DNA from: Alishewanella agri BL06
GTDB taxonomy: Bacteria > Pseudomonadota > Gammaproteobacteria > Enterobacterales > Alteromonadaceae
Length of the DNA stretch: 64,000 nt
Assembly: GCF_000272005.1 (NCBI RefSeq)
Contig: NZ_AKKU01000011.1
Location: 1 to 64,000, forward strand
Reading direction: 5' to 3'
Positions 2,117-61,060 of this stretch are shown here, piece after piece; positions within the stretch are counted from its first letter, which is position 1, and the number at the start of each line of letters is the position of its first letter. The notes below the pieces were generated by a model that ran no database searches, had not been told where the DNA came from, and worked only from the letters and a program-made list of their open reading frames with translations. A program made the position numbers and the translations under genes.

Positions 2117-2164
2117 ACTCCGGTACCGGTCCGACCTCAGACCGGTACCGGAGTGCGGTCTGAC
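2117..2164. repeat. REP/BIME-like inverted repeat, locus 1 (no DnaA-box feet)
   Basis: Inverted arms ACTCCGGTACCGGTC (2117-2131) and GACCGGTACCGGAGT (2140-2154) are separated by 8 nt. The right part continues into GCGGTCTGAC. A 28-bp stretch (2137-2164) recurs exactly at 3367-3394 on the other side of the neighbouring gene. This copy lacks the TTATCCACA foot. It lies in the intergenic region between divergent genes. Confidence 0.85.
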
Positions 2165-2283
2165 TAGTAGCCGAGTAGAAGACTTGCAAAAAATCGAAAG
2201 AAAAGACGGATTATTTGCACTGGTCTAACCGCTGCACCGCCCATATCTATGTCACACGAAGAAACCACAACCACCGGAGTGTT

Positions 2284-3351
2284 ATGAATACTGTCTTTTC
2301 CCCGATTAAACTGGGCGCAGTCGCGCTGAAAAACCGCATTGTGATGGCGCCATTAACCCGTTGTCGTGCGACTGTCGATCACTACGCCACCGCACTGATG
2401 GCTGAACATTATGCCCAGCGTGCCAGTGCCGGCTTGTTGATCGCCGAAGCGACCATGGTTGCTGAGGGTAATTCGGCATTTTATCGTGAACCTGGCATCT
2501 ACTCTGCCGCCCATGCCGAAGCCTGGCGCCAGGTCACCCAAGCAGTACATGCGAAAGATGGCAAAATTTTCCTGCAGATCTGGCACGGTGGCCGCGCTTG
2601 TCACCCGGCATTAAATAACGGCAAAGTGCCGGTATCTGCCGGCACCACCGCCATTAACGATTACACTCATACCCCTGAGGGCAAAAAAGATTACACCGCG
2701 CCACGTCAGCTAACCACAAATGAAGTGGCAGAGGTGGTCGAACAATTCCGCCAGGCGGCGTTTTATGCCAAACAAGCTGGCTTTGACGGCGTGGAAGTAC
2801 ACGGTGCCAACGGCTATTTGATTGACCAGTTCCTGCGTGATGGTATTAATAACCGTAATGACCGTTACGGTGGCAGTATCGAAAACCGTGCCCGCTTCCT
2901 GCTGGAAGTGCTGGATGCCGTGATCAGCGTCTGGGGTGCCGACCGGGTTGGTTTACGCTTATCACCTCTGAACAGCTTTAACAGCGCGAAAGACAGCGAC
3001 CCGGTAGGTCTTATTTCTTACCTGGCAAAAGTGTTAACTCCGTTAAATCTGGCCTACCTGCATCTGATGCGTGCCGACTTTGCCGGTTTACAGTTTGGCG
3101 ACGTGGTCAGTGCAGCACGCGCTAATTATCAGGGTAACTTACTGGTAAATATGGGTTACGATCTGGCAGAAGCGAACCAGGTAATTGGTCGCAACCAAGC
3201 CGATGCCGTCGCGTTTGGCAGTGCCTTTATCGCTAACCCCGATTTGGTTGAACGGCTGGCTCAGGGCTTACCGCTGGCGCAGCCTGATGTGGCGACCTTT
3301 TACACTCACGAAGCTCAAGGTTATACCGATTATCCTCGCGCCAGCGCCTAA
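2284..3351 (+). CDS. Old Yellow Enzyme family ene-reductase (NemA-like)
   Basis: The protein has 355 aa. It is an FMN-dependent flavoprotein expected to reduce activated C=C bonds or nitro compounds with NAD(P)H in the cytoplasm. The (beta/alpha)8 signature is clear: MAPLTRCRA near the N-terminus for FMN binding, IWHGGR at about residue 99, EVHGANGYLIDQFLRDG at 171-187 (with the substrate-orienting His173/Asn176 pair) and DRYGGSIENR just after. The ATG at 2284 is preceded by GGAG at 2275-2278 and gives the canonical OYE N-terminus (TVFSPIKLG). A longer reading from a TTG at 2215 adds 23 unrelated residues and was not used. The gene is flanked on both sides by an identical 28-bp piece of the REP-like repeat. 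Confidence 0.88.
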   Translation: MNTVFSPIKLGAVALKNRIVMAPLTRCRATVDHYATALMAEHYAQRASAGLLIAEATMVAEGNSAFYREPGIYSAAHAEAWRQVTQAVHAKDGKIFLQIWHGGRACHPALNNGKVPVSAGTTAINDYTHTPEGKKDYTAPRQLTTNEVAEVVEQFRQAAFYAKQAGFDGVEVHGANGYLIDQFLRDGINNRNDRYGGSIENRARFLLEVLDAVISVWGADRVGLRLSPLNSFNSAKDSDPVGLISYLAKVLTPLNLAYLHLMRADFAGLQFGDVVSAARANYQGNLLVNMGYDLAEANQVIGRNQADAVAFGSAFIANPDLVERLAQGLPLAQPDVATFYTHEAQGYTDYPRASA

Positions 3352-3362
3352 AAGTTGAAACA

Positions 3363-3397
3363 CTGGTCAGACCGGTACCGGAGTGCGGTCTGACCAG
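3363..3397. repeat. REP-like unit, locus 2, forming a hairpin after the OYE stop codon
   Basis: The unit has the family core CCGGTACCGG preceded by CTGGTCAGA. The terminal arms CTGGTCAGACCG and CGGTCTGACCAG pair with 11 nt between them. It begins 12 nt after the stop codon of the OYE gene, so it could shape the 3' end of that transcript. It has no poly-T tract and no TTATCCACA foot. It shares 28 bp with locus 1. Confidence 0.85.
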
Positions 3398-3517
3398 CTT
3401 AATGCGGCCTGCTTGCAGCTGGCGGTCAGCTCGGGTACAGTTGTGAGGTCAAGAATGGGGTGAGATCGGCAGATCTGGCCCCTTTTTACCTTATATACTA
3501 ATAACGAGAAACTTCTT

Positions 3518-4861
3518 ATGCATGACGCATCCTGGCGGGATTTGCCCCCGCCCACGCCTTTTTATCGCTGGATGGTGTTGCTGTTTGTCAGCCTGGCGAT
3601 GTTTGGTAACTACTACATTTATGACTCGCTCTGGCCTATCGTCGATTTACTGCGCGAACAACGCGGATTCAGCTATCAGCAAATTGGTTGGCTTTCCACT
3701 GCCTATAACGTAGCGGCACTGCTGGTATTACTGGCTGGTGGCTATTTGATTGACCGCTGGGGTACTAAAAGAGCCATTACGCTGTTTGCCTTGATTTGTT
3801 TATTTGCCGCGCTGGTTACCGCCTGGAGCCCGAATTTTGAGATGATGCTGGCCGGGCGCTTTTTGCTGGGTTTAGGTGCCGAACCCCTGATTGTTGCCGC
3901 TACCACCGTACTGGCGAAATGGTTTAAAGGCAAGGAACTCAGTTTTGCCTTTGGTATTAACCTGTCCATTGCCCGTTTAGGCTCTACTGCCGCTGACTGG
4001 TCAACCGGTTTTGCCAGCCCGCTTTACGCCAACTGGCAAGACCCATTGTGGCTGGCGACCGCCGTAGCCGGGATTTCAGTTAGTGCCGCTATCCTGTACT
4101 GGATTTTAGAACGTCGCGCCGAAGGCCGTTACGGCCTGGGCGTGGTTGAAAATAACGAAAAATTGGAATTTAAAGGCCTTTACAGCTTCAGTGCCTCGTA
4201 CTGGTATGTGGTAGCGCTTTGTGTGGTGTTTTATGCCACCGTATTTCCATTTCGTAGCTTTGCTATCGACTATTTTCAGCAAGCGCATGGCCTGGACCGC
4301 GAAGCCGCCGGTATTCTCAGCAGCATTTTGCCGGTAGCCGCCATTATCGCGACGCCGCTCTTTGGTCTCTGGGTCGATCGCATCGGCAAACGCGCCCTCT
4401 TTATGGCCGCCGGCTCGCTGGTGCTACTGCCGCTGTTTTTAATCGTCACCTATGCGCCCGCCGGTCCGCTGGTGGGCATTAGCATCCCCTTTATTGGCAG
4501 TGCCGTGGTGCCACTCACCTTATTACTGGTGATCACCGTACTGGGCATAGTGTTCTCACTGATCCCAGCCGTTATGTGGCCTTCTGTTGCCTATATCGTT
4601 GATGGGCGCCGTCTCGGTTCGGCCTATGCACTCATGACCTTTTGCCAGCAAATCGGCTGGGCAATAGTGCCGCTAACCATTGGTTTCCTGAACGATAAGT
4701 TTATGGCTGGCCCGGATAATATCGGCGGCTATACACCGGGTATGTGGCTTTATACCGGTATGGCATCACTGGGTTTATATTTCTCTTATAAACTCTGGCG
4801 CACCGAGCAAGGCCCGCATGGTCATGGTCTGGATACCATTACCAGTAAAAACTCTGCCTGA
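3518..4861 (+). CDS. MFS transporter, MFSD1-like
   Basis: The protein has 447 aa and about twelve predicted membrane helices. MFS loop motifs are visible after helix 2 (GGYLIDRWGTKRAI) and in the second half (FGLWVDRIGKRALF). The N-terminal part (MFGNYYIYDSLWPIV) and the long helix 4-5 region recall bacterial relatives of MFSD1, some of which move dipeptides; this is inference and the substrate is open. A GAGA sequence lies about 9 nt before the ATG. It runs in the same direction as the OYE gene, with a REP-like hairpin between them, and is followed by a clear intrinsic terminator. Confidence 0.75.
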   Translation: MHDASWRDLPPPTPFYRWMVLLFVSLAMFGNYYIYDSLWPIVDLLREQRGFSYQQIGWLSTAYNVAALLVLLAGGYLIDRWGTKRAITLFALICLFAALVTAWSPNFEMMLAGRFLLGLGAEPLIVAATTVLAKWFKGKELSFAFGINLSIARLGSTAADWSTGFASPLYANWQDPLWLATAVAGISVSAAILYWILERRAEGRYGLGVVENNEKLEFKGLYSFSASYWYVVALCVVFYATVFPFRSFAIDYFQQAHGLDREAAGILSSILPVAAIIATPLFGLWVDRIGKRALFMAAGSLVLLPLFLIVTYAPAGPLVGISIPFIGSAVVPLTLLLVITVLGIVFSLIPAVMWPSVAYIVDGRRLGSAYALMTFCQQIGWAIVPLTIGFLNDKFMAGPDNIGGYTPGMWLYTGMASLGLYFSYKLWRTEQGPHGHGLDTITSKNSA

Positions 4862-4883
4862 CGCAGTACCGTTAATAGTTAAC

Positions 4884-4910
4884 AAAGGAGCCGGCAAAGG
4901 CTCCTTTTTT
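4884..4910 (+). terminator. Rho-independent terminator after the MFS gene
   Basis: Stem AAAGGAGCC / GGCTCCTTT with a 6-nt loop, continuing into a run of T. It lies 23 nt after the stop codon of the upstream MFS gene. Confidence 0.9.
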
Positions 4911-4994
4911 ATTCCCGGTAACTAAATTTCGGCTAAAGTTTACACTAAGCTGGCCGTTAACCCGTTAAGGCCAAAATGTAACAGGAGCGCCGCT

Positions 4995-5600
4995 ATGAGT
5001 ACCATCAAACCCGATGCCGCGATTAATGCTAACCGCCAGACTGCCTTTAAAACCGAATTGCCGGCCAGCGCCAATGTCAAAGCGCAGGAAAACTACAGTC
5101 AGATGCTGGAAAAAACCGGCAAGGCGCAGATGAATGCCGCCATCCTGCAAGCCAACGAAAAAGTGGCATTACAAAGCGGTAATAATTCGCTGAGTTTATT
5201 GTACAAGACTGCGCTGGAAGGTATTAACAAAGAGCTGGAGCCAATTTTTGGTAAAAATGCCGCGCAAAAAATTTATGACTCCGGTATCGACACCTCACCG
5301 GAAGCCACTGCCGGCCGTATCGTTGGCTTTGCTACCAGCTTGTTTTCTCTATATCAGCAACAGCGCCCATCTGATGACCAGGAACAACAGCTGGATGAAT
5401 TTATGGCTGTAATTGGCAAAGGCATAGAACAAGGCTTTGCCGATGCGATTAAAATTCTCGAAGGTCTGCAGGTTTTTAATGGTGAAGTAAAAACCGGCGT
5501 CGATACCACCTACGATTTAGTGCAACAGGGTTTACAGAGCTTCCGCGAAAAGATGCTGGAAAGCTTTACCAAGCCTGAGCAGCCAACTGCGTCTGAGTGA
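4995..5600 (+). CDS. DUF5610 domain protein
   Basis: The protein has 201 aa and is soluble, with no signal peptide and no membrane segment. It is rich in Gln, Ala and Lys. The central part (EPIFGKNAAQKIYDSGID, then AGRIVGFATSLFSLYQQQ) and the tail, a repeat of GI/GF-rich helices, match what I know of DUF5610 proteins of Shewanella, Pseudomonas and Vibrio; their function is unknown. AGGAG at 4982-4986 is a good ribosome binding site. The gene stands alone after a terminator and converges on the PaeA-like gene, with only 27 bp between the two stop codons and no obvious terminator there. Confidence 0.7.
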   Translation: MSTIKPDAAINANRQTAFKTELPASANVKAQENYSQMLEKTGKAQMNAAILQANEKVALQSGNNSLSLLYKTALEGINKELEPIFGKNAAQKIYDSGIDTSPEATAGRIVGFATSLFSLYQQQRPSDDQEQQLDEFMAVIGKGIEQGFADAIKILEGLQVFNGEVKTGVDTTYDLVQQGLQSFREKMLESFTKPEQPTASE

Positions 5601-5627
5601 TAGCGCTCCCTGATTAAAGTATAGTGC

Positions 5628-6917
5628 TCACGGCTGCTCTATCCGGGTTACCAACAGCTGGTCTATTTTGTAACTATCAATATCGACCACTTCGAATTTA
5701 TAGCCGCCGTGCAGCACAAAATCAGTGCGTTTCGGGATTTTGCGCAGGCTGTACATCATAAAACCAGCGATAGTTTCGTAATTCTCTGCATCGGGAAAGC
5801 TATCAATACCCAGCACCCGCATTACGTCGGCCAGTGGCGTTAAGCCCTCCACCAGCCAGGAGTTGTTATCCCGGGCTACGATTTGATCTTCTTCTGAGCT
5901 GACTAACTCACCCATGACGATACTCATCACATCTTTTAACGTGATAATGCCCACTACCAGCGCATATTCGTTCAGGATAATCGCGAAGTCGATACCTGCT
6001 GACTTAAAGTGTTCCAGTACTTCGTACAGTGACAAGGTATCCGGAATAATCAGTGGCGCCCGCACTATGCCCTCTTTACTCAAAGAAATAGGTTGGTCAT
6101 GCAGCACCTGCATTAAAATATCCCGGGTATCAACATAACCCACCACCTGATCCAACACCTTGTCGCATACCAGAAATTTGGCATGCGGATGCTCGGCAAT
6201 CTTGGCTTTGATATTGTCTTGCGATTCATCCTTGGTGAAGAAAATCAGGCTCTCACGCGCAGTCATTGCCGAGGTCACGGTGCGGGATTCCATATCAAAC
6301 ACGTTTTCCAGCAGTTGATGCTCGTGCTCCTGTAACACCCCCGCCTGAGCACCGGCATCCATCATTGCCATAATATCGTCAGGCGTAATGTCATCTTTGC
6401 GCATCGTTGGTACTTTAAACAAACTAAAGAATAAGTTTGCCAGACCGTTAAATAACCAAACAAAGGGGCGAAGTACCAAAATAAGAAACAACATCGGCGA
6501 CACGATACGAAGTGCGATTTGTTCAGGTGCAATCATCGCCAGGCGTTTTGGCATAAGATCAGCAAACAAAATAAATAAGGACGTAACAAAAAATACCGAC
6601 AAGGTAAAAGCCGCCGGCTGTACCCAGGGCTCTGAGCTAATCAGTGCCAGTAAGCTCGAAAAATAAGGGGTAAAAGCCGATTCACCCAGAATACCGCCGA
6701 GGATTGCAACGGCATTTAGGCCAATTTGCACCACCGTAAAAAAGTTACCCGGATGTTCCTGCAACTGCAGTACTTTTTCTGCCCGCACATCGCCTTCAGT
6801 TGCCAGCATCCGCAATCGCATCTTGCGCGATGCGGCCAGAGCAATTTCAGAGATCGAAAAAAACGAACTGGCTGCGACCAGCAAAAACATCACCAGCAGG
6901 TATTCAAGGGTTGTCAT
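5628..6917 (-). CDS. paeA: PaeA (YtfL)-like inner-membrane transporter, CNNM/CorC family
   Basis: The protein has 429 aa. The order is a DUF21/CNNM membrane domain (about 1-190, several helices, with FFSISEIALAASRK at the N-terminus), a tandem CBS pair (about 205-335, including KFLVCDKVLDQVVGYVDTRD) and a C-terminal CorC/HlyC domain (about 345-425, ending DSYKIDQLLVTRIE). It matches E. coli YtfL almost along its whole length, and that protein (PaeA) is linked to export of cadaverine and putrescine. The export role here is therefore family knowledge rather than something visible in the sequence. The gene diverges from the GGDEF gene, with 164 bp between their starts. Confidence 0.85.
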   Translation of the reverse strand: MTTLEYLLVMFLLVAASSFFSISEIALAASRKMRLRMLATEGDVRAEKVLQLQEHPGNFFTVVQIGLNAVAILGGILGESAFTPYFSSLLALISSEPWVQPAAFTLSVFFVTSLFILFADLMPKRLAMIAPEQIALRIVSPMLFLILVLRPFVWLFNGLANLFFSLFKVPTMRKDDITPDDIMAMMDAGAQAGVLQEHEHQLLENVFDMESRTVTSAMTARESLIFFTKDESQDNIKAKIAEHPHAKFLVCDKVLDQVVGYVDTRDILMQVLHDQPISLSKEGIVRAPLIIPDTLSLYEVLEHFKSAGIDFAIILNEYALVVGIITLKDVMSIVMGELVSSEEDQIVARDNNSWLVEGLTPLADVMRVLGIDSFPDAENYETIAGFMMYSLRKIPKRTDFVLHGGYKFEVVDIDSYKIDQLLVTRIEQP

Positions 6918-7081
6918 AGATTATCCGCAACAAAGCTATTAAAAAGCGCCAGAGCCAACAGCTGTCAGCTACGCCATTGGTAGTATACGTTATTTCACTG
7001 TTTGGCTGACGCTATTATCTGGACTTTACTGAAAAATTTAGTTACAACTACGGCTAATATATAGCGAGCTGCGATAATAAT

Positions 7082-9160
7082 ATGCTTAAGTCAGCGCTTA
7101 CAGTAGCCATCCTGTGTTGTAGTTTTATGACAGCCTCTGTGTCGCCGTCAGCTTATGCTTATACTCAGGATCTGGATAAACCGCTAACGGTGTTATCGAT
7201 ACAACAAGCACAAGACGCGGAGCTGGAAGCGCAGCTGGACCGCTACCTCAACCTTGAATTTCGTGAACCGGAAACAGCTGCCGCTTTACTACAAAGTATT
7301 GTAAACCAGCTGGATGACACTACCCCCATTGAAACCTACGTTAGAGCAAGGACTTACCAAATCCTGGCAAAGTTTTACAGCAGACAAGCCGACGATGAAA
7401 CTGAAGCAATGCAGTTACTGACCGCACTGCAGGCAAAAGCTGATAAACCTATTACTGTCAACGCCTTAACGGAAATCAATACACTCCAATTGCAGGTGCT
7501 GCTGTTAAAATCACAGCTAAACGAAGCCTATCTGCAAGCTGAAACAGTCAAAGAATACTTAGCGGATACCAATAATCCACGCATCCTCTATTGGACGCAC
7601 GGCATGCTGGGTAATCTCGCCCGCACCGACGGCCAGTTTGAACAGGCGTTGGTGCATTACAGTAGTGCCATGGATGCACTGCAACAATTGAATGATGACC
7701 GTTTACTGCTACGCCGCTCGTCCCTGAACTGGCAAACGGCTCTGGTATATACCGAGCTAAAAAACTGGACGCAGGCCAGACCGCTACTCGAAAACCTGAT
7801 TGAAGAAGTTAAAAAGCATGGTCAGGACGATTACTTAGGTGATCTTTATCTGGCACTCGGTTATGTGCTGAGTATGCAAAAAGATTTTCAGGCGGCGGAG
7901 CAAATCAACCAGCAAGGGCATGACTTAGCCAGAGCGCGCAAACAACCATCTTTAGCGCTGACCTTTATGAATAACCAAGCTTCAATTCTGATTGAAGAAC
8001 AACGCTATGCCGAAGCTAAAACCATGTTGGAAACAGCATTAGCGGAAGCTGAAGCGTTAGAAGATCCCAACACTTATCAGATTATGCGCTTAAATTTGGG
8101 CTATATCCGCGTGATGCAGGGCGATACTGCGGCCGGTTTAGCACAGATGGAGGCGGCCTATGCGTACTATGAAGAGTTTGGCGTTAAGACCGAGCTGGAA
8201 GGCCATCTGGAATGGCTGGCCAAGGCCTACCGCGCTGCCGGCGATTATTTAAAACTGGCAGATACGCTGCAAAAGCAAATGGCGCTGCGTGAGGAAATTT
8301 TCTCTGAAAACAGAGAAAAGCGGATCAATGAATTGCAAAGCCGTTACGATCTCAAATCCCAAGCACAGCGAATCACCATTTTGCAGCAGCAAAATGATTT
8401 GCAGGAAGAGCTGATTAAAAACAAACAACTACAACAACAAATCACCCTACTATTTATTATTCTGATGGGGCTGGCTGCCGTGATGCTGGTTCAGTTGTAC
8501 CGTAAAGTACGCCGCTCTAATTTGCGGCTGCGGGAAATGAATAAACAACTGGAATATCAGTCGCTGCGCGATCCCTTAACGGGCTTGTATAACCGCCGCG
8601 CCATGCAGGAAAAGATGGCAAAACGCCATCAGGAAAGCCAACCCGCACGCTGTGCACTCTTACTGCTGGATATCGACTTCTTCAAACATATTAATGATCA
8701 TTATGGCCACGCTGCCGGCGATGCGGTGTTGATTGAAATCAGCCAACGCTTACAGGCGCTTTGTCAGGAGTCGGAACTATTAATCCGCTGGGGTGGTGAG
8801 GAGTTTTTAATCGTGTTGCAGCGCCCACAGCAAGACGACATCGACCAGCTCTGCCAGACACTGCTCCATAAGGTGTCTGAGCTGCCAGTACTGTTTGAAG
8901 GCAAAGAAATTCCCGTTACCATCAGCGGTGGCTTTATCAACCTGCCCTTTGCTGGCGTGCCAGAGCATCAATTCAACTGGGAACGCGTACTTCAGGTGGC
9001 CGATATGGCACTGTACCTGAGCAAAGTGAACGGCCGTAATCAAATCAACCTGGTAACCGGCCTGAATGTGCCGTTTGCTGATGCCGAACCCCATCTGCAA
9101 TCCGATCTGTCAGGCGCCATTCGCGAGAACATGATCCAACTCCACACCATCAACGGCTAA
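7082..9160 (+). CDS. TPR-containing membrane diguanylate cyclase (GGDEF)
   Basis: The protein has 692 aa. A signal peptide (about 1-26) is followed by a periplasmic, helix-rich region resembling tetratricopeptide repeats (about 45-400), a coiled coil, one membrane helix at about 454-473 and a cytoplasmic GGDEF domain. The domain starts at LTGLYNRRAM (about 498), has LLLDIDFFKHINDHYGH and an intact GGEEF at 571-575, so it should make c-di-GMP from two GTP. The inhibitory RxxD site that normally lies five residues before GGEEF reads QESE, so product inhibition is probably lost. The TAA stop is followed by one base and then a REP-like foot. A role in biofilm or polysaccharide control is plausible from context only. 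Confidence 0.88.
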   Translation: MLKSALTVAILCCSFMTASVSPSAYAYTQDLDKPLTVLSIQQAQDAELEAQLDRYLNLEFREPETAAALLQSIVNQLDDTTPIETYVRARTYQILAKFYSRQADDETEAMQLLTALQAKADKPITVNALTEINTLQLQVLLLKSQLNEAYLQAETVKEYLADTNNPRILYWTHGMLGNLARTDGQFEQALVHYSSAMDALQQLNDDRLLLRRSSLNWQTALVYTELKNWTQARPLLENLIEEVKKHGQDDYLGDLYLALGYVLSMQKDFQAAEQINQQGHDLARARKQPSLALTFMNNQASILIEEQRYAEAKTMLETALAEAEALEDPNTYQIMRLNLGYIRVMQGDTAAGLAQMEAAYAYYEEFGVKTELEGHLEWLAKAYRAAGDYLKLADTLQKQMALREEIFSENREKRINELQSRYDLKSQAQRITILQQQNDLQEELIKNKQLQQQITLLFIILMGLAAVMLVQLYRKVRRSNLRLREMNKQLEYQSLRDPLTGLYNRRAMQEKMAKRHQESQPARCALLLLDIDFFKHINDHYGHAAGDAVLIEISQRLQALCQESELLIRWGGEEFLIVLQRPQQDDIDQLCQTLLHKVSELPVLFEGKEIPVTISGGFINLPFAGVPEHQFNWERVLQVADMALYLSKVNGRNQINLVTGLNVPFADAEPHLQSDLSGAIRENMIQLHTING

Positions 9161-9161
9161 C

Positions 9162-9262
9162 TTATCCACACGTCTCCGGTACCGGCCCGACCAGTTTATC
9201 CACAGCACTCCGGTACCGGTCCGAGGTCAGAGCTCATACCGGTACCGGAGACGTGTGGATAA
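9162..9262. repeat. REP/BIME-like cluster, locus 3 (three units, three DnaA-box-like feet)
   Basis: Three units: TTATCCACA-CGTCTCCGGTACCGG at 9162-9185, a second in the same direction starting at 9196 (TTATCCACA-GCACTCCGG...), and an inverted one ending TGTGGATAA at 9254-9262. Units two and three form a long hairpin around a 19-nt spacer. The cluster fills the space between two convergent genes: the left foot starts 1 nt after the GGDEF gene stop and the right foot directly abuts the stop of the antiporter gene. It could act as a bidirectional 3' end. Confidence 0.92.
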
Positions 9263-15971: not shown

Positions 15972-16044
15972 AACTTATCCACACGTCTCCGGTACCGGAC
16001 GGAGGTCAGAGCTCTTACCGGTACCGGAGACGTGTGGATAAGTT
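15972..16044. repeat. REP/BIME-like perfect inverted repeat, locus 4, in a divergent promoter region
   Basis: Two perfect 27-bp arms, AACTTATCCACACGTCTCCG plus GTACCGG and its complement, surround a 19-nt spacer (15999-16017). Exact DnaA-box-like feet lie at 15975-15983 and 16034-16042. This is the most regular copy in the window. It lies between the divergent mrpE and prpE-like genes, so here it cannot serve as a 3' end. The rest of the 273-bp intergenic region shows no other clear element. Confidence 0.95.
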
Positions 16045-18457: not shown

Positions 18458-18525
18458 ACTGGTAAGACCGGTACCGGAGACCTGTGGATAAACTGGTCGG
18501 GCCGGTACCGGAGACGTGTGGATTA
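18458..18525. repeat. REP-like tandem pair, locus 6 (two 34-bp direct units)
   Basis: Two head-to-tail 34-bp units, 18458-18491 and 18492-18525, both begin ACTGGT and share the core CCGGTACCGGAGAC. The first ends with an exact TGTGGATAA, the second with TGTGGATTA. The second abuts the stop codon of the yjbH-like gene with no gap. This direct tandem arrangement defines the single unit of the family and recurs beside the RAYT gene. Confidence 0.92.
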
Positions 18526-24776: not shown

Positions 24777-25679
24777 CTAATCCCCCAGCTGTTTTACCAA
24801 CCACTCCTTAAAAGCCGAACCTAAATTCTTATCGCGTATTCCAAACTCAACAAAAGCCTGCATATACCCCAGCTTATTACCGCAATCATGGCTGCGACCT
24901 TTTATTTGGTACGCATTAACTTGTTGCTGATCCAATAACATGGCAATCGCATCAGTTAGTTGAATTTCATCTCCCGCACCTATTGGCGTACGTTTAAGGC
25001 ACGGCCAAATATCCTTGCTAAACACATAGCGACCCACTACCGCTAAATTGGATGGAGCTTGCTCAACTGTCGGTTTTTCGACAATCTCTGTCATTTTAAC
25101 CGAGTCACCCGGGGCTAACTCCACGCCAGCCACATCAGCAATACCATAATTACTCACGTTTTGCTTCGGAACAGGCTCAACCATTACCTGACTTACTTGT
25201 GACTCTGTAAACAATTTGACCATTTCGGCTAAATTATCTTGTTTTAAGTCACAGTCATAACTATCAACTATCACATCGGGCAATAACACGGCAAAAGGGG
25301 CATCGCCAACCAGCGGCAAAGCACACAACACAGCGTGACCAAGCCCCTTAGCCTCACCCTGGCGGACATGCATAATGGTTACGTCTTTCGGGCAAATATT
25401 TTGCACTTCATCCAATAACTGGCGCTTTACCCGCTTTTCCAGCATAGATTCCAGTTCAAAACTTTTATCAAAATGGTTCTCAATGCTATTTTTAGATGAG
25501 TGCGTAACCAGCACAATTTCTTTTATGCCTGCCGCAATACACTCTTGCACCACATACTGAATAAGAGGTTTATCCACAACCGGCAGCATTTCTTTTGGAA
25601 TAGCTTTAGTAGCAGGCAACATCCTGGTTCCCAAACCTGCTACAGGAATCACCGCTTTACGCACAACATTATTTGCCAT
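24777..25679 (-). CDS. galU: UTP-glucose-1-phosphate uridylyltransferase GalU
   Basis: The protein has 300 aa. It makes UDP-glucose from UTP and glucose-1-phosphate in the cytoplasm, feeding Ugd downstream in the pathway. The nucleotide-binding signature [20 protein letters not shown] is at the N-terminus, [12 protein letters not shown] follows, and EKP and the C-terminal [12 protein letters not shown] are typical of bacterial GalU. The ATG at 25679 has AAGGA before it; a TTG two codons earlier is less likely. The gene contains one exact TTATCCACA (25570-25578) in the VVDK codons, which I take as coincidence. Confidence 0.93.
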
Positions 25680-45987: not shown

Positions 45988-47265
45988 TTAAAGACGCATA
46001 TCAACTGACTCTGCCGGTAAAACATACTTCAAATCATAAAGTACACTCTCCTTCTTAGTCAGCGCTTTGATACCAGCAGCACCCATTTCGCGAAACTCTT
46101 TATGCCCTACAGCCAGTATTACTGCGTCGTATGCCCCGGTCTCTGGCCGATTAAGCGGTGTGATACCATATTCATGCATGGCTTCCTCGCTATTTACCCA
46201 AGGGTCAAAGACGTCAGCATCAACGCCAAAGTCTTTTAGCTCAGCCAGAATATCAACCACCTTAGTGTTTCGAATATCTGGGCAGTTTTCTTTAAAAGTT
46301 AAACCCATCACCAGTACTTTAGCACCTGCAACGTGAATACGACGCTTAATCATTGCTTTAACCAGCTCACCAACGACATAACGGCCCATACTGTCATTAA
46401 TACGGCGACCGGCAAGGATGACTTCAGGGTGGTAGCCTATCGCTTGAGCTTTATGAGTTAAATAATATGGGTCCACGCCTATACAATGTCCACCAACTAA
46501 GCCCGGGCGAAAGGGCAGGAAATTCCATTTAGTACCCGCGGCTAATAAAACCTCTTCAGTATCAATTCCAAGCTTGTTGAAAATAACTGCCAGTTCGTTT
46601 ATCAGGGCAATATTTAAATCACGCTGGGTATTTTCAATAACTTTGGCAGCCTCCGCCACTCGAATAGAGCTGGCTTTATAGGTGCCTGCCGTAATGATGC
46701 TGCGGTAAAGGTTATCTACCAACTCTGCAATTTCAGGAGTTGAACCTGACGTCACCTTTTTAATAGTAGTAACACGATGTTCTTTGTCACCCGGGTTTAT
46801 CCGCTCAGGGCTGTAACCTGCAAAAAAATCCACGTTATATTTTAGGCCTGATACCCGCTCTATGACAGGAATACAATCTTCTTCAGTGGCACCGGGATAA
46901 ACTGTAGATTCATAGATAACCACATCGCCAGGTTTAATAACCTCACCTAAGGTTTCCGACGCCTTTACCAATGGAGTCAAATCAGGTTGACGATGTTCAT
47001 CTATCGGCGTTGGTACCGTAACAATAAAAATATTAGCACGGCGTAAATCAGATATTTCGTTGCTGTAGCTCAGCCTGCTTGCTAAAGCGAGTTCGCCTCT
47101 ACTCACTTCTAAGGTATGATCCTCGCCCCGCTTCAACTCACTGATGCGAGCCTGGTTAATATCAAAACCCAAAGTTTGATAGTGCTTACCAAATTCAACC
47201 GCAAGCGGTAAACCAACATAACCCAAGCCAATAATGGCGATATGTGCATCATTCAATTTCAACAT
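45988..47265 (-). CDS. wbpO: UDP-N-acetyl-hexosamine 6-dehydrogenase (WbpO/TviB-like)
   Basis: The protein has 425 aa. NAD-binding [38 protein letters not shown] and the catalytic Cys in [13 protein letters not shown] are present, with [15 protein letters not shown] in the C-terminal domain. It should oxidise UDP-GlcNAc or UDP-GalNAc to the corresponding uronic acid, which WbpP then epimerises. It lies 18 bp downstream of wzz. Confidence 0.9.
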
Positions 47266-48213: not shown

Positions 48214-48284
48214 AAGGGTCCTTGTTAGTAGTTTCGGCCTCCAGTGCTACTCGCACACCAGAGACAGCTGCTAAGCCATAATGA

Positions 48285-51011: not shown

Positions 51012-51057
51012 TCACTTGCTTCCGTTTTTAGTTGATTATGCATTTACAGCCTTTAGG

Positions 51058-51093: not shown

Positions 51094-51114
51094 ACTGTTA
51101 TATTTTCCAGCGGG

Positions 51115-51120
51115 AGTATA
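51115..51120 (-). promoter_or_regulatory. Candidate -10 box of the wza operon promoter
   Basis: TATACT on the minus strand, about 45 bp upstream of the ops core. This would place ops in the early transcribed leader as in known RfaH operons. No good -35 is visible at 17 bp spacing, so the site is tentative. Confidence 0.35.
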
Positions 51121-51182
51121 CCTTAACTCTCCCTTCGATTTTACTATTTTAACGCTGGCATTAACCTGGTTAGCGCCAGCTT

Positions 51183-51677: not shown

Positions 51678-51779
51678 AGAGTACTACTTCCTTAATGCTG
51701 GCGTAGATGGTAAAGCTGAACAGCGCAGGACGTCAATTGTTTCATCCGACCAACCAACTAACCGCTGATTTTATCACCA

Positions 51780-53126: not shown

Positions 53127-53202
53127 CTTACATAAACATCCTGTACGGGCGTATTACCCGCGGCAATGCTACCAAACCGCTGTAGGGGTTACAAGTTTTG
53201 AG

Positions 53203-53269
53203 TTATCCACACGTCTCCGGTACCGGTCGGAGGTCAGATGTCAGACCGGTACCGGAGACATGTGGATAA
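53203..53269. repeat. REP/BIME-like inverted repeat, locus 7
   Basis: TTATCCACACGTCTCCGGTA... and ...CCGGAGACATGTGGATAA surround a 19-nt spacer (TCGGAGGTCAGATGTCAGA). Both DnaA-box-like feet are exact (53203-53211 and 53261-53269). It lies between the rmlC end and the wzi start on the same strand, and it is the first copy after a 34.7-kb stretch without any. Confidence 0.94.
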
Positions 53270-53288
53270 TATATTGCATTTTTAATTA

Positions 53289-53813: not shown

Positions 53814-53836
53814 TGCAGCTCAGATTTATAATGTAG

Positions 53837-53914
53837 TTATCCACACGTCTTCGACACCTGTGTATAAAATGTGCGACTTATCCACTGGTGTCGGACACCG
53901 GTCAGAGGTCGAGC
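53837..53914. repeat. Diverged REP-like element, locus 8
   Basis: It begins with an exact TTATCCACA (53837-53845) and contains TGTGTATAA, a match to the relaxed DnaA-box consensus, then TTATCCACT. The core CCGGTACCGG is replaced by GTGTCGGACAC, itself a short inverted repeat, followed by the family spacer GGTCAGAGGTC. It looks like a second subtype with a different stem but the same feet. It lies between rmlC and rmlB. Confidence 0.75.
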
Positions 53915-54924: not shown

Positions 54925-54936
54925 ATTACCTTATTT

Positions 54937-55827: not shown

Positions 55828-55833
55828 AGCTAT

Positions 55834-55876
55834 ACGTCTCCGGCTCCAGTCAGACCTCCGACCGGTACCGGAGACG
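55834..55876. repeat. REP/BIME-like element, locus 9 (left arm degenerate, feet missing)
   Basis: ACGTCTCCGG at the left and CCGGTACCGGAGACG at the right flank a partly changed centre (CTCCAGTCAGACCTCCGA). There are no TTATCCACA feet. It lies 6 bp upstream of the rmlD start in the divergent rmlD/wecC region, so it is probably in the rmlD leader. Confidence 0.8.
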
Positions 55877-55972
55877 GTAGCGGTGAAGAGAATTTTGGTT
55901 GGTAAATTGTATATTCATTTTCGCGGCTTTATGATGGTTATATCACTTCTCTAGCGTTATAAGGATCGGATA

Positions 55973-57220
55973 ATGCTGTCTTCTTTTGCAAAAGTTTCTG
56001 TCATCGGCCTGGGTTATATCGGTTTACCTACTGCAGCGGTTATCGCTTCACGCGGCGTTGAGGTGGTAGGTATCGATGTGTCTGAGCATGCGGTTAATAC
56101 CATTAACCAGGGCAAAATTCATATCATCGAACCAGATTTAGATATGCTGGTACAGGCCGCGGTAACCACGGGTAAGCTGCGGGCCTCGTTAACTCCGGAG
56201 CCGGCCCAGGCCTTTATGATTGCCGTACCTACGCCCTTTAAAGATGATAAAGCGCCGGATTTAAGTTATATCCGCTCGGCGCTGGAGAATATTGCGCCTG
56301 TTATCGAAAAGGGGAATTTAATTATTCTGGAGTCGACTTCGCCGGTTGGTACCACTGAGCAAATCGCCCAATGGCTGTCGGAACTTCGCCCGGATTTAAA
56401 AGTACCGCTGGACCCTTCTGACAGTGCTGATGTGTTTATCGCCCACTGCCCGGAGCGAGTGCTGCCTGGCCGGGTATTACAGGAACTGGTAAGTAACGAC
56501 CGGATTATCGGTGGTATTACCGATCGCTGTGCCGAAAAAGCGATGGGCTTATACCAGCTGTTTGTGCGTGGCGAATGCTTGCGTACCAATGCGCGCACTG
56601 CCGAGATGGCGAAGTTAACTGAAAACGCCTTTCGTGATGTTAATATCGCCTTCGCTAACGAGCTATCGCTGATTTGTGATGAGTTAAAAATTAACGTTTG
56701 GGAACTGATTAAGCTGGCGAACCGCCACCCTCGGGTAAATATCCTCAGCCCAGGCCCTGGTGTGGGCGGCCACTGTATTGCGGTTGACCCTTGGTTTATT
56801 GTCGACTCAGCACCTGCGCTGGCGCGGATGATTCGTACCGCGCGTGAAATTAACGACAGTAAGCCGCATTATGTTATCAACAAGGTGAAAGAAGCGGCAG
56901 ATCAATTTAAACGCCCGGTAATTGCTTGTTTGGGTTTGGCGTTTAAAGCGGATATTGATGACTTGCGCGAGAGCCCGGCGCTGGATATCGCTGAGCATTT
57001 GATCAATGACAATGTTGGTGAAATTCTGTTGGTGGAGCCTAATATCAAGGCTTTACCAAAACGCTTAAGCCAGCACAATGATAAGCTGACTACCCTGCCA
57101 AAAGCCTTAGAGCGCGCCAATGTGCTGGTGGTGCTGGTTGATCATCGTCAGTTCAAAGCATTGCACATTAACGATGTAACCACCAAAGTCGTCATTGATA
57201 CCCGCGGCATCTTCGGCTAG
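55973..57220 (+). CDS. wecC: UDP-N-acetyl-D-mannosamine dehydrogenase WecC
   Basis: The protein has 415 aa. VSVIGLGYIGLPTAAVIASRG, ESTSPVGTTEQIA, HCPERVLPG (typical of WecC), GGHCIAVDPWFIVDS with the catalytic Cys, and LAFKADIDDLRESPA are intact. It oxidises UDP-ManNAc to UDP-ManNAcA. The 2-epimerase partner WecB is not in the window. An AAGGAT ribosome binding site precedes the ATG. It is a lone plus-strand gene among minus-strand sugar genes. Confidence 0.9.
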   Translation: MLSSFAKVSVIGLGYIGLPTAAVIASRGVEVVGIDVSEHAVNTINQGKIHIIEPDLDMLVQAAVTTGKLRASLTPEPAQAFMIAVPTPFKDDKAPDLSYIRSALENIAPVIEKGNLIILESTSPVGTTEQIAQWLSELRPDLKVPLDPSDSADVFIAHCPERVLPGRVLQELVSNDRIIGGITDRCAEKAMGLYQLFVRGECLRTNARTAEMAKLTENAFRDVNIAFANELSLICDELKINVWELIKLANRHPRVNILSPGPGVGGHCIAVDPWFIVDSAPALARMIRTAREINDSKPHYVINKVKEAADQFKRPVIACLGLAFKADIDDLRESPALDIAEHLINDNVGEILLVEPNIKALPKRLSQHNDKLTTLPKALERANVLVVLVDHRQFKALHINDVTTKVVIDTRGIFG

Positions 57221-57230
57221 TTCCCCACAC

Positions 57231-57290
57231 TTATCCACAGCACTCCGGTACCGGTAGGACCTCTGACCGGTACCGGAGACGTGTGGATAA
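57231..57290. repeat. REP/BIME-like inverted repeat, locus 10 (short-spacer type)
   Basis: TTATCCACAGCACTCCGGTA... pairs with ...CCGGAGACGTGTGGATAA across a 12-nt spacer (TAGGACCTCTGA). Its sequence differs from locus 11 at a single base. It separates convergent wecC and the phosphomannomutase gene, with the right foot 1 nt from the latter's stop. Confidence 0.94.
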
Positions 57291-57291
57291 G

Positions 57292-58707
57292 TTAGTTGAG
57301 TTTTATTTTGGTGCCAAGATGTGCCAGATGTTTGGCAGTGATATCGGTATCAGCTTCGCTGTAAATTCTAAGTTCAGGTGCATTGCCTGAGGCTCTGAAA
57401 TGCAGAATATGGCCATTATTCAGGGTAAGACGAACACCGTCAGTTTGATCGATATCTTGCGTGGTTGTGTCTGTCATTCCCAATTGCTGCAAAATAAGTT
57501 CAGGCTGAGACGCCGCGATAGCCAGCAGCTTTTGGCTTAGTTCCGCCGGAACATTTTGGATGCGTTCACTGGCAGTAAAGCGTTGTGGCAACTCCCGACT
57601 CAGAGCTGATAATGGTTTACCTTCAGCGAGCAGCATAATAGCGATAAAAGGGAGTAAAGCATCACGGGTGGGTAATGCCGATAGCTCGTGGCTGTTTACT
57701 TTGATGTCAGACGCCAGTAAAAATCCCCCATTTGCCTCGAAGCCCGCTACGCTGGCATATTGACGCTGTAATAGCTGCATGCCCTCAATAACATAAGGCG
57801 AGCCTATCCGGGTGCGCTGTACCTCAGTAAAATTACCGCACAAATCGATGGCACTATTGGCATTTATCGGTACGGCCAAAGCCTGTATTTTCAGCGCTTT
57901 GGCGGTGAGCAAGCCAACCGTATCCCCACGCAGCCAATTACCGTTTTCATCAGCAATAAGTGGCCGGTCACCATCGCCGTCAGTTGAAAAAATAGCATCA
58001 AACCGATAAGTTGTTGCCCATTTCCGGGCTTTTTGTTGGTCAGCTTCTGAGACTGCTTCGGTATCGATGGGGACAAAGTGATCGGTACGCTCCAGCCGGG
58101 TAACCTTAGCACCAAGCTCAGTAAGTAGTTGATGATACAGGTCGCGCCCGGCACTGGAGTGTTCGTAAATGCCGATATGTTTACCTTTGAGGCAGTTTAC
58201 CGGGCAGATTTCCCGATATCGTTGCAAATAGGCATGCGCCGCTTTGCCATCGGCAGTAAGTGTGCTTGGCATGGTATGCAGCAGCGTGTCAGCACAGCTG
58301 AGAATACTTTGCTCATCCGCTTTACTGATTTCGCCATCGGGCCGATAGAATTTAATACCATTACGGTCGAATGGAATATGACTACCGGTAATCATAATCG
58401 CAGGTATCTGCTCTTTAGCCGCCTGCAATGCTAATGCCGGTGTCGGTAACACACCGTAATAATGAACAGCTAAACCCATCGCCTGAGCCATAGCTGCACA
58501 ATGTTGCGCCATAACCGGGCTACTTGGGCGGTTGTCGATACCGATAGCCACTGCAGAGAATGAGTAACGCCTCGCCATTGTCTGTAAAAAGCTTTGAGTA
58601 AAGGCAGAACACACTGTTGGCGAAAAGTCTTTTACCAGCCCCCGCGCGCCGCTGGTGCCAAAGGCGATACCACTGCAATGTATAATATCACTTAGTTTTC
58701 TACTCAT
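57292..58707 (-). CDS. manB: Phosphomannomutase (ManB/CpsG-like)
   Basis: The protein has 471 aa of the alpha-D-phosphohexomutase family. The N-terminal FGTSGARGLV, the phospho-serine loop MITGSHIPFDRNGIKFY with Ser109, and the metal loop FSTDGDGDRPLI are intact, with FRASGNAPELRIY at the C-terminus. It should make mannose-1-phosphate for ManC. The TGSHIP loop differs from the usual TASHNP but occurs in this subgroup. Phosphoglucomutase activity is possible. Confidence 0.85.
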   Translation of the reverse strand: MSRKLSDIIHCSGIAFGTSGARGLVKDFSPTVCSAFTQSFLQTMARRYSFSAVAIGIDNRPSSPVMAQHCAAMAQAMGLAVHYYGVLPTPALALQAAKEQIPAIMITGSHIPFDRNGIKFYRPDGEISKADEQSILSCADTLLHTMPSTLTADGKAAHAYLQRYREICPVNCLKGKHIGIYEHSSAGRDLYHQLLTELGAKVTRLERTDHFVPIDTEAVSEADQQKARKWATTYRFDAIFSTDGDGDRPLIADENGNWLRGDTVGLLTAKALKIQALAVPINANSAIDLCGNFTEVQRTRIGSPYVIEGMQLLQRQYASVAGFEANGGFLLASDIKVNSHELSALPTRDALLPFIAIMLLAEGKPLSALSRELPQRFTASERIQNVPAELSQKLLAIAASQPELILQQLGMTDTTTQDIDQTDGVRLTLNNGHILHFRASGNAPELRIYSEADTDITAKHLAHLGTKIKLN

Positions 58708-58717
58708 AACCCCTCAG

Positions 58718-58777
58718 TTATCCACAGCACTCCGGTACCGGTATGACCTCTGACCGGTACCGGAGACGTGTGGATAA
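58718..58777. repeat. REP/BIME-like inverted repeat, locus 11 (short-spacer type)
   Basis: Almost identical to locus 10, with spacer TATGACCTCTGA. Both feet are exact DnaA-box matches (58718-58726 and 58769-58777). It lies between manC and manB on the same strand, with one foot 1 nt from the manC stop. Confidence 0.94.
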
Positions 58778-58778
58778 G

Positions 58779-60191
58779 TTAGCTGCGGCCGTAGCGATCG
58801 GAGAAACGGACGATATCGTCTTCGCCTAAGTAGGCGCCGGATTGAACTTCAATAAGTTCAAGCGGTATTTTCCCTGGGTTTTCCAGCGAATGCACTGCGC
58901 CGATAGGTATGTACACCGACTGGTTTTCAGTGAGCAACTGCTCATGCTCATTAATAGTGACTCTCGCTGTGCCGTGCACTACTATCCAGTGTTCAGCCCG
59001 GTGATGATGCATTTGAATAGACAATTTTTCGCCTGGCTTCACGCTAATATGTTTAACCTGATAGCGGCTGCCATTGTCAATACTATCGTATTTGCCCCAG
59101 GGTCTGTATACCTCACGGTGGATATAATGCTCACTACGGCCTGCGGCTTTAAGTTGTTGCACGATGTTTTTTACATCTTGCACCTTATCTTTGGCTGCAA
59201 CTAATACAGCATCTTTTGTTTGGATGACAACGGTGTTCTGCAGCCCCACTGTTGCTACAATACCGGTTTCGGCATAGACATAATTGTGTTGAGAATTATG
59301 CTGAAACACCTGCCCCAGATGAACATTGTGCGCTTGGTCTTTGCTACTGATCTCCCAGAGCGAAGACCAGGAGCCAACGTCGCTCCAGCCAGCAGCCATT
59401 GGCACTACCACTGCCTTAGTTGTTTTTTCCATGACAGCGTAGTCGATTGAGTCTGCGACGCACGCTGAAAAGGCTTCTTTATCTACCCGGATAAAATCAA
59501 GATCTGGCTCAACATTAGAGATAGCCGCCTCGCATGCAGCTAAGATTTCTGGTCGGAATTGTTTAAGCTCAGCCAAGTAAACACTGGCTTTAAACATAAA
59601 CATTCCGCTATTCCAGTAATACTCGCCACTCTCTAAATACTGCTGAGCTGTTGTTAAACCGGGTTTCTCAACAAATTCTGCCACGCTAAAAGCTTGATCT
59701 GTCGGGGAAGTTGCTACCCCGCGACGAATATAGCCATAGCCCGTTTCAGCCGCTGTTGGGACTATGCCAAACGTAACCAGCTGATCGGCCTGCGCCAGGG
59801 TAGTCGCCTTTGCTATCGCCTGATGAAAGGTTTCACTGTCTTGAATTACGTGGTCTGCCGCAAGAACAAGCAATAGCGGATCTTGCCCTTGTCTAATAGC
59901 GGTAAGTGCAGCTAGGGCAATAGCTGGTGCGGTATTACGCCCCACAGGCTCAAGAATAATGTTATGGTTTAGCCTGTCAATCTGTCGCAACTGTTCGGCG
60001 GCAATGAAACGGTGCTCTTCGTTACAGATGACTAGAGGTGTTTCAAACTCTAAGCCCTGTAAACGCTGTACCGTGGCTTGCAACATGGTAGTGTCGCCAC
60101 ACAGTTTAAGAAACTGCTTTGGCATTAACTCACGGGATAAAGGCCATAAGCGGCTACCAGTGCCACCGGCCATAATAACGGGTAAAAGCAT
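58779..60191 (-). CDS. manC: Mannose-1-phosphate guanylyltransferase / mannose-6-phosphate isomerase ManC
   Basis: The protein has 470 aa and two domains. The N-terminal transferase has [20 protein letters not shown] and later FVEKPG. The C-terminal cupin isomerase part has [12 protein letters not shown], the metal ligands in [19 protein letters not shown] and the final FSDRYGR. It makes GDP-mannose, and in bifunctional members also fructose-6-phosphate to mannose-6-phosphate. It is upstream of manB on the same strand. Confidence 0.93.
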
Positions 60192-60269
60192 GCTCGATCC
60201 TTGACGTCGTTTTTTATGCAGTTACTTTAAATCATCGCAAGAATTAAGCAAACACTCTTGAAGAAGAAC

Positions 60270-60299
60270 TTATCCACATGTCTCCGGTACCGGTCCGAC
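60270..60299. repeat. REP-like single unit, locus 12, forming the 3' end of the RAYT gene
   Basis: TTATCCACATGTCTCCGGTACCGGTCCGACG. On the minus strand this unit encodes the last nine residues of the RAYT protein and its TAA stop. It is inverted relative to the two units upstream of the RAYT gene, so the gene is bracketed by inverted copies. Confidence 0.93.
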
Positions 60300-60917
60300 G
60301 AGTTTCGAAACAATCGGGCTGACTCGATTTTTCGATAATGCACTTCGAATAGCACTGAGTTCTTGCTCGCTGATCGGTTGAGTGAACAACTCACGATAAG
60401 CTTTCAATCGGTTAAAAGTGGTATCACCCAATGCCTGATAGGTGCGGTGAGGCTCAAGAATATTCGACTTCATACCACAAGCATTACTGTGAAAGCTTGA
60501 CCAATGATATCCACCGGGCGAACTAACCAGGCCAGCGCGCACTGGATTGAGTTCGATGTAGCGATAACAGGCGAGTAGATAGTAGTCACTTTCGATGACA
60601 CTGGCGAAATATTTACCATCCCATACCGTGCCGCTGCGTGCTTTAGTTGTATTGAAATAGCCAGCAAACTTCCGCCCCAGGCACTGCATAAAATGTGGTA
60701 CTTCCGCCCCATCCTCCGGCGTAACCAGCAAATGATAATGATTAGACATCAGCACAAAGGCATGAAGTTTCACCGAAAACTCTTGTAATTTATTACATAA
60801 GATACTGAAAAACATTGCTTTGTCGGCCTCACAGCCGAAGCAAGGCATACGATTATGCCCCCGATTAACAATATGATAGGGCATTCCACTTACGAAACAA
60901 CGCGGTTTGCGAGCCAT
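60270..60917 (-). CDS. REP-associated tyrosine transposase (RAYT, Y1/IS200-like)
   Basis: The protein has 215 aa. It has the HUH motif His60-Tyr-His62 in LMSNHYHLLVTPEDG and a candidate catalytic Tyr (Y118 or Y120) in LACYRYIELNPVRAGL. The N-terminus (RKPRCFVSGMPYHIVNRGHNR) is typical of TnpA-REP proteins, and GRKFAGYFN and SGTVWDGKY follow. Such proteins nick single-stranded DNA at REP sequences and are single-copy, domesticated-looking relatives of IS200 transposases. The last residues VGPVPETCG are coded by a REP-like unit, so the original C-terminus may have been replaced. REP-like units flank it on both sides, making it the likely driver of the repeat family. Confidence 0.9.
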   Translation of the reverse strand: MARKPRCFVSGMPYHIVNRGHNRMPCFGCEADKAMFFSILCNKLQEFSVKLHAFVLMSNHYHLLVTPEDGAEVPHFMQCLGRKFAGYFNTTKARSGTVWDGKYFASVIESDYYLLACYRYIELNPVRAGLVSSPGGYHWSSFHSNACGMKSNILEPHRTYQALGDTTFNRLKAYRELFTQPISEQELSAIRSALSKNRVSPIVSKLVGPVPETCG

Positions 60918-60985
60918 TATATTAACCTTATGTTAAATAAATTTTAAAATAGATGATGAATTAGCTGATTGCAAATCGAGCCATG

Positions 60986-61060
60986 AGTGGTACGAGGTCT
61001 AGCCGGTACCGGAGACATGTGGATAAAGTGGTCAGACCGGTACCGGAGACGTGTGGATAA
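60986..61060. repeat. REP-like tandem pair, locus 13, upstream of the RAYT gene
   Basis: Two direct units end with exact TGTGGATAA at 61018-61026 and 61052-61060. The second, 61027-61060, is a full 34-bp unit (AGTGGTCAGACCGGTACCGG... end) matching locus 6. The first is longer at its 5' side (GAGGTCTAG before the core). The right end is 1 nt from the stop codon of the SLC13 gene. Confidence 0.93.

Follow-up and report, generated by a model that had tools for sequence, protein, structure and literature searches.

The first 64,000 nucleotides of contig NZ_AKKU01000011.1 of Alishewanella agri BL06 (the window in what follows) carry a family of repetitive extragenic palindromic (REP) elements together with a gene for a REP-associated tyrosine transposase (RAYT), and the outer foot of the repeat unit, TTATCCACA, is a perfect DnaA box. 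Nineteen exact copies of this 9-mer were found on the two strands of the window, against a mean of 0.38 and a maximum of 2 in 100 dinucleotide shuffles, and 17 of them stand 5 bp outside an exact copy of the palindromic core CCGGTACCGG, with the box facing outward. The core occurs in 22 exact copies at 12 loci, which lie between likely genes or across the stop codon of the RAYT gene (a mechanically called open reading frame (ORF) of 116 aa overlaps the locus at 53203). Nine of these loci bear a box, six have two facing perfect boxes and three are boxless (2120/2142, 3372 and 55862). An original prediction, made from the sequence alone, had counted 18 boxes within elements at thirteen loci, and both figures are recovered once a probable decayed element at 53837 is added to the 12 exact-core loci and to the 17 boxes beside exact cores; the copy at 25570 lies within an ORF and is unrelated to the family. 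The predicted structure of a core with an outer foot agrees with the exact matches, although not at every locus, and the statement that two boxes face each other at most loci was too generous. The repeats form a real and well-defined family of REP doublets forming hairpins (REPINs), with a perfect DnaA box in place of the usual GTRG end. The function of the abundant REP elements is disputed; in this family the motif at the end coincides with the protein-binding site that is best studied in bacterial replication.

The family is a REPtron, that is, a REP/REPIN family with a resident RAYT, as had been proposed under the name of a REP or bacterial interspersed mosaic element family. The RAYT gene is bracketed by REP units with their feet outward (60270-60293 and 61003-61060), inverted pairs of units fold, and the protein combines a Y1_Tnp domain with a fold like that of Escherichia coli TnpA-REP (4ER8). 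An AlphaFold2 model (mean predicted local distance difference test score 89) has 4er8_A as its best match in the PDB (Z 17.1, root mean square deviation 2.6, 159 residues aligned), followed by the IS608 and ISDra2 transposases, and residues H60, H62, Y113 and Y120 are invariant in a 42-row alignment. No DnaA-like C-terminal domain (Bac_DnaA_C or HTH) was detected in the 215-aa protein by Pfam at E values up to 10. The residues of TnpA-REP that contact GTAG, Q95 and R104 (PMC6006769, PMC8266576; all papers are cited here from excerpts), align to D and E in this RAYT, in a weak alignment (E 0.047). Its nearest named relatives belong to Alishewanella longhuensis (74% identical) and Rheinheimera sp. 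UJ63, and the A. longhuensis gene (L033) is flanked likewise, with an exact foot at one end and TTGTCCACA at the other. The genome has two Y1_Tnp matches, the RAYT being one of them; the other, stronger match (L031, C1:68348-68707) falls in a 157-aa frame and is probably an IS200-type transposase.

The repeat unit and its insertion site

Read from the inside outward, a foot-bearing unit consists of approximately AACTGGTCAGA, the core CCGGTACCGG, AG followed by three variable bases, and TGTGGATAA. Facing pairs in the sequence that was read measure, from box to box, 67 bp (eight pairs), 60 bp (five pairs) or 54, 79, 88 and 101 bp (one each). When folded as single strands, four of four inverted pairs give long hairpins (z -7.4 to -12.1), and of the single units examined (one of each kind) a foot-bearing unit does not fold (z +1) and a unit of the B type described below does (z -5.2). 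The linkers, also part of the stem, are often mismatched within a facing pair (GCACT opposite AGACG), so pairing does not explain why the foot is constant. Reading the foot on the complementary strand gives a GTGG, which lies 3' of its own unit's core and only in tandem arrays stands 7 nt before the arm of the next unit. Some units have a second core type, a CCCT...AGGG hairpin with the same arms and the same DnaA-box foot, interleaved with normal units (L113:15781-15930, L114:13651-13750 and L232:14463-14583).

The outer flanks were tallied at 48 ends, after 16 tandem-internal ends among 64 had been set aside. Position -2 is A at 43 of these ends and position -1 is C at 27 and G at 11, giving a weak CTAAC consensus. 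Six of the 13 window elements start or end no more than 2 bp from an ORF stop codon, and one more includes the stop codon of the RAYT gene itself. The left boundary is placed at the start of the foot by a comparison at one orthologous place, where genome G230 shares ...GCCGCCACCTAAT (up to CTAAT) with this genome and then diverges exactly at the foot, and a second such place is consistent with this. A one-sided target site was considered and set aside: TAAC stands at one end in five of 13 dimers and at both ends in none, which is no evidence of one-sidedness because only about 0.5 dimers would be expected to have TAAC at both ends.

Copies across the genome and in the genus

The 3.49-Mb assembly (30 contigs, Alishewanella/Rheinheimera-type) contains the foot plus core 57 times and the same pattern read backwards not once, and it contains TTATCCACA 97 times against 19 when the 9-mer is reversed. 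Exact cores number 114, and in 76 of these AG follows on one strand (core+AG units); 84 were read, including all 76, and none of the remaining 30 has AG. At least six of the nine foot letters are present in 60 of the 76 units, all 60 of which score 8 or 9, 56 being perfect, and their linkers are AGACG (28), AGTGC (21), AGACA (5), AGACC (5) and AGTCG (1). In another nine units (B type) the nine columns of the foot hold GGTCTGACC or a near form of it, and seven have neither a DnaA-box foot nor the B module. The foot thus does not vary freely across the genome, the outcome on which the original prediction had staked itself: 56 of 60 feet are perfect next to three variable linker bases.

The stretches read around elements, together with the window, account for 68 of the 97 genomic boxes; the other 29 have no element context. 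The 68 comprise 56 before a linker and an exact core, the copy at 25570 within a gene, and 11 judged by eye to derive from elements, so about 67 of the 97 perfect boxes in the genome belong to the family. The family had been called dispersed, which holds in that it reaches seven contigs and five species, but it is also clustered, with 43 of the 76 units, or 25 of 48 loci, within the 2.9% of the genome around the RAYT gene. The first 104 kb from the start of the window contain 37 perfect boxes, at least 35 of them within elements by eye. This crowding (window 2118-61060 and C11:64001-104000) could mean that elements insert locally, near the RAYT gene.

The exact foot plus core was found in five of 395 family genomes, all in the genus of the window and there in five of 31 genomes, with 57, 29, 27, 4 and 2 copies. 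The family, and with it the exact DnaA box at the foot, thus occurs in five species. These carriers have 97, 91, 74, 72 and 55 perfect boxes; the 26 other genomes of the genus have a mean of 37.3 (range 25-51). The region C11:61 kb to 104 kb is syntenic with stretches of G146, G242 and G230 and partly of UJ63, and those syntenic stretches hold 9 of the 16 GGTACCGGAG sites of G230 (within 80 kb), 9 of the 29 foot-plus-core copies of G146 (on three contigs totalling 42 kb) and two of the four in G242 (within 40 kb). Crowding of REPs is thus also seen in the syntenic stretches of G230 and G146, two genomes that show no cognate RAYT. No exact foot or core was present in the 400 bp read at the RAYT-syntenic place in G242.

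At several orthologous places the feet are retained and linkers or cores differ. At 65205, G146 keeps both feet with the linker GCACT for CGTCT; at 90593 both feet are kept in G146 and G242 with differing linkers; and at 97681-97723 two feet are kept in G146. Several orthologous places have no element in G230. Mismatches in the foot and in the core were tallied with two core windows, CTCCGGTAC and CCGGTACCG, and the significance test was made for G230. The foot:core counts for the two windows are 11:23 and 18:38 in G230, 2:17 and 1:3 in G242 (where the excess in the core is partly the other core type), 8:13 and 11:11 in G000, 2:4 and 7:3 in G355 (A. longhuensis), and 1:1 and 1:2 in G146. The G230 figures suggest, but only suggest, lower decay in the foot than in the core, as the core of G230 may itself have drifted and chance may account for a few of the 24-26 units matched; six of the 10 stretches were chosen for an intact core, which favours the core.

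The RAYT relatives give an indication of where the foot came from. The UJ63 RAYT (67-68% identical) adjoins a 44-bp array with a near-identical core (CCGGTACTGG) and GGTC.TACC-like ends, and no DnaA box was found in this array in the 10.6-kb locus that was read. Because the next-closest RAYT thus adjoins a near-identical core without the foot, the box has probably taken the place of an older GGTCTGACC-like end; this exchange would have occurred in the lineage that gave rise to this genome and to A. longhuensis, GGTCAGA-type ends being the older state. Among more distant RAYTs of the genus, GGGTCAGAGTGA hairpins bracket eight of 18 loci examined. These eight RAYTs (L164-L171) lie close to an orthologue of the nucleotide-sugar dehydrogenase gene of the window (46055-47240).

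Why the foot is a DnaA box

Domain IV of the host DnaA differs from that of E. coli (1J1V) at five of 71 aligned residues, all within the last 22, and on this similarity the host protein should be able to bind duplex boxes in vitro; binding to the repeats is plausible. Position 5 of the box is left free by DnaA (TTWTNCACA), and four of 20 changes in the feet fall there, not a significant excess (p 0.18). This tally leaves aside two further TTATTCACA partners (L128 and L131), seen by eye beside intact boxes, which would raise the count for position 5. In chromatin immunoprecipitation sequencing of E. coli, DnaA occupied only a minority of lone perfect boxes in vivo (13 of 32), and the presence of a further box at a distance of 2-3 bp predicted binding (PMC11317965). 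Such a partner (at least six of nine matches at 2-3 bp) accompanies three of 65 feet in the family, which is the chance level (random 5.4%). Box centres are 51 or 58 bp apart in the 60- and 67-bp REPINs, equal to 4.86 and 5.52 helical turns, so the main REPIN sizes give the boxes no fixed phase.

A survey of 80 RAYT loci, kept from 466 relatives found, showed no enrichment of boxes beside RAYT genes: TTWTNCACA was counted three times in 77 kb of flanking sequence and 31 times in 566 kb away from the flanks. The A. longhuensis foot is uncounted here because it overlaps the end of the matched stretch, the sequence at the other end of that gene being off-consensus. Facing boxes 40-70 bp apart occur in 92 of 390 family genomes, with 15 sites in G000, 10 in G355, five in G146, one in G230, none in G242 and one each in the other matching genomes. 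Genomes of other genera (L279-L293) have one facing-perfect-box site each, many with a GTGGATAAGATC-like motif between the boxes. No motif match to mutH, rppH, gidA or dnaA was found near these sites in 3 kb each. A DnaA motif was absent from the first 6 kb of G365 and present at the start of G097.

One facing pair within the genus lies between genes for MutH and a NUDIX protein, in both relatives that were read (L296 and L297, ~1501-1564; two facing perfect boxes, 64 bp). The same intergenic site in this genome (L302, ~3.2-3.5 kb) has one perfect and three related boxes. MutH and NUDIX were assigned by Pfam on L296 and on L302 of this genome, and the NUDIX gene beside mutH is presumably rppH. 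In E. coli, DARS2 (a DnaA-reactivating sequence) lies upstream of mutH (PMC11317965).

We lean towards the view that this is a RAYT-mobilised REP/REPIN family and that its foot has been retained mainly as the end that the RAYT processes and that is inserted behind TAA(C). The element would be built of units with an inner arm, a palindromic core (or another hairpin in some copies) and, as a 9-bp end module, a perfect DnaA box. An inverted pair of units, when single-stranded, would form one long hairpin with the boxes paired at its base, and the RAYT, as an HUH tyrosine transposase, would most likely act on this folded strand. The box would be the 5' end of the element beside the hairpin, joined directly to a TAA(C)-like target that is often a stop codon, and would be conserved mainly because the RAYT needs it as a terminus, a GGTCTGACC-type end having probably given way to the box in this lineage. 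No effect on replication would be necessary to explain the data. The prediction had offered two functions for the foot; of these, a recognition or nicking end for the RAYT agrees best with the evidence, and a dispersed datA is supported weakly if at all, given the lack of partner boxes at 2-3 bp and the clustering around the RAYT gene.

Several observations weigh against this preferred account. It leaves the exact 9/9 match to the DnaA consensus as a coincidence: for a given 9-mer in either orientation the odds are about 8 in a million, and we would put coincidence at roughly one in ten as a rough guess, since repeat families, offsets and known motifs allow many possible comparisons. The canonical GTAG/GTGG guide stands 0-2 nt 5' of the hairpin, and here GTGG stands 3' of the core, within the foot. 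No cognate RAYT is present among the matches in three of the five carriers (best 45%, 36% and 45%, the last a contig-edge fragment), yet the foot is still there, exact in nine of 11 (G146), two of six (G242) and five of nine (G230) core-anchored units read; an account by RAYT alone must therefore call the loss recent. Mismatches in G230 are about half as many in the foot as in the core (p 0.058 and 0.010 with the two core windows). At place 65205, G242 has one changed foot (TTATCTACA) and G230 no exact foot.

The G230 result can be read in favour of a role for DnaA in the life cycle of the element, in which a captured box serves as the terminus and host DnaA modulates or times the mobilisation of REPINs, as at the ends of Tn5. 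Such a role is a secondary possibility, which we hold well below processing by the RAYT. It would account for an exact consensus 9-mer at the extreme end of the element, it agrees with the similarity of domain IV to that of E. coli, and it has a precedent in Tn5, where a DnaA site lies in both the outside end (OE) and the mosaic end (ME) (PMC3347997). RAYT genes in general have no boxes nearby beyond background, however, the RAYT itself has no DnaA-like C-terminal domain, position 5 is not significantly the most variable of the box, and in A. longhuensis one of the two core windows points in the opposite direction (foot 7, core 3). We consider it unlikely that the boxes act at the level of the host, as a titration sink or as sites like DARS or datA kept by selection on replication timing. 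The share of perfect boxes that lies in elements (about 67 of 97, and at least 35 of the 37 in the first 104 kb), the excess of boxes in carriers over non-carriers, and the facing perfect boxes of similar spacing at the MutH-NUDIX site, the place of DARS2 in E. coli, in two relatives would all fit such control. The partner boxes at no more than chance level, the boxes out of phase in REPINs of 60 and 67 bp and the 26 of 31 genus genomes that do without the exact family speak against it. Least probable of all, in our estimation, is a foot whose letters are read by neither RAYT nor DnaA and are conserved only as hairpin stem or by gene conversion: feet do pair in dimers, and tandem and inverted copies could convert each other, but a stem would permit compensatory change, and the same letters recur in five genomes and in single units, while the linkers of the same stem mismatch within dimers.

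A more far-reaching combination, which strikes us as doubtful, is that the RAYT lineage adopted the host DnaA box as its terminus, which would make its REPINs mobile modules for DnaA binding, that DnaA couples REPIN mobilisation to replication and that the pile-up of REPINs across ~100 kb around the RAYT gene is a lineage-specific DnaA sink or DARS-like region; if so, a selfish repeat tunes the initiation of replication. Should DnaA sit on the repeats, a mobile repeat would have raised the number of perfect boxes ~2.6-fold over the mean of non-carriers (97 versus 37.3), and the DnaA titration model, revived in recent work (PMC12371093), would have a natural experiment here.

Known systems and features of the window

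The family resembles the REPINs and REPtrons of E. coli, Pseudomonas and Stenotrophomonas (PMC3116915, PMC8266576) in its REP-flanked RAYT, intergenic inverted pairs, long hairpins and tandem arrays, and it shares the HUH transposase of canonical REPtrons, this RAYT being closest in fold to 4ER8. It differs from canonical GTAG-type REPs in that no GTAG or GTGG stands at the 5' foot of the hairpin and a 9-bp TTATCCACA terminus lies 5' of the core; with an element that starts 5'-TTATCCACA-linker-hairpin and has no GT[AG]G 0-2 nt 5' of the hairpin, assignment to that type was rejected. REP doublets are described as randomly distributed in extragenic space (PMC3116915), whereas the copies here are concentrated around the RAYT gene. 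Tagged palindromic units in dimers are also found in the GTAG- and CGTC-tagged REP superfamilies (PMC3733652), and of the 60 foot-bearing units here 33 have CGTC, or TGTC as a listed variant, in the linker (AGACG 28, AGACA 5). In the excerpts of that paper, CGTC repeats lack an associated transposase and their stems measure 8-9 bp, whereas here units flank a RAYT and 21 of 60 linkers are GCAC. With the tag in only 33 of 60 foot-bearing units and a family that flanks a RAYT, the CGTC type was likewise rejected.

A printed link between RAYT-like transposases and DnaA exists for TIRYT, or TnpA-REP subclass 2.1 (PMC6006769), the only such link that our literature searches returned in the material available. 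In that subclass a DnaA-like domain is part of the protein, and the ends, GGGG[AT][CG]A[CG], are unlike DnaA boxes (PMC6006769); here the situation is reversed, and membership of subclass 2.1 was rejected as the RAYT has no Bac_DnaA_C or HTH extension. The outside and mosaic ends of Tn5/IS50 are similar as transposon termini with a single DnaA site, and at the Tn5 OE DnaA can out-compete the transposase (PMC3347997). The difference is that Tn5/IS50 has an unrelated transposase and no REP hairpin family. Tn5 transposase acts on double-stranded DNA. The loci datA, DARS1 and DARS2 (PMC11317965, PMC4585315) are likewise intergenic non-coding DNA with several DnaA boxes, but they are fixed single multi-box loci, DARS2 with sites for Fis and integration host factor, whereas the family consists of mobile repeats with isolated or far-spaced boxes. 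No earlier report of a REP family with DnaA-box ends, and no paper combining Alishewanella with repetitive extragenic palindromic, was found among the papers listed in searches of the open-licence PMC literature.

The elements of the window are listed in Table 1. No Rfam family was matched in the window at the gathering threshold.

Table 1. Repeat elements and the RAYT gene in the 64-kb window
Feature	Positions	Strand	Evidence or remark
Footless unit pair, one of B type	2118..2165
B-type footless REP, GGTCAGACC...GGTCTGACC, folds alone	3360..3402		folding z -5.2
REP array of three cores with three perfect feet; spans the interval between two converging ORFs and comes within 1-2 bp of either stop codon	9162..9262
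REPIN, 67 bp, facing perfect boxes, near-complete hairpin	15975..16041		folding z -12.1
REPIN, 67 bp, facing perfect boxes, right after a stop codon	18032..18098
Tandem REP pair, one perfect foot, one single-change foot (TAATCCACA)	18468..18525	-
REPIN, 67 bp, facing perfect boxes	53203..53269		sequence and folding
Probable decayed REP that has lost its core; foot perfect, linker CGTCT	53837..53860	+	by eye
Core with another outer end, no foot	55862..55873
REPIN, 60 bp, facing perfect boxes	57231..57290		sequence and folding
REPIN, 60 bp, facing perfect boxes	58718..58777		sequence and folding
REP unit with outward foot, downstream end of RAYT gene	60270..60293	+
RAYT, TnpA-REP-like HUH tyrosine transposase, 215 aa, stop inside the REP foot at 60270	60270..60917	-	Pfam Y1_Tnp 2.3e-13
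Two tandem REP units, 34-bp period, feet away from RAYT, upstream side of RAYT gene	61003..61060	-

Between the REP-rich flanks of the window lies a 35-kb stretch (~18.5-53.2 kb) without an exact core, which has polysaccharide genes, including those for a YjbH-like protein, an SLBB export protein and a nucleotide-sugar dehydrogenase.

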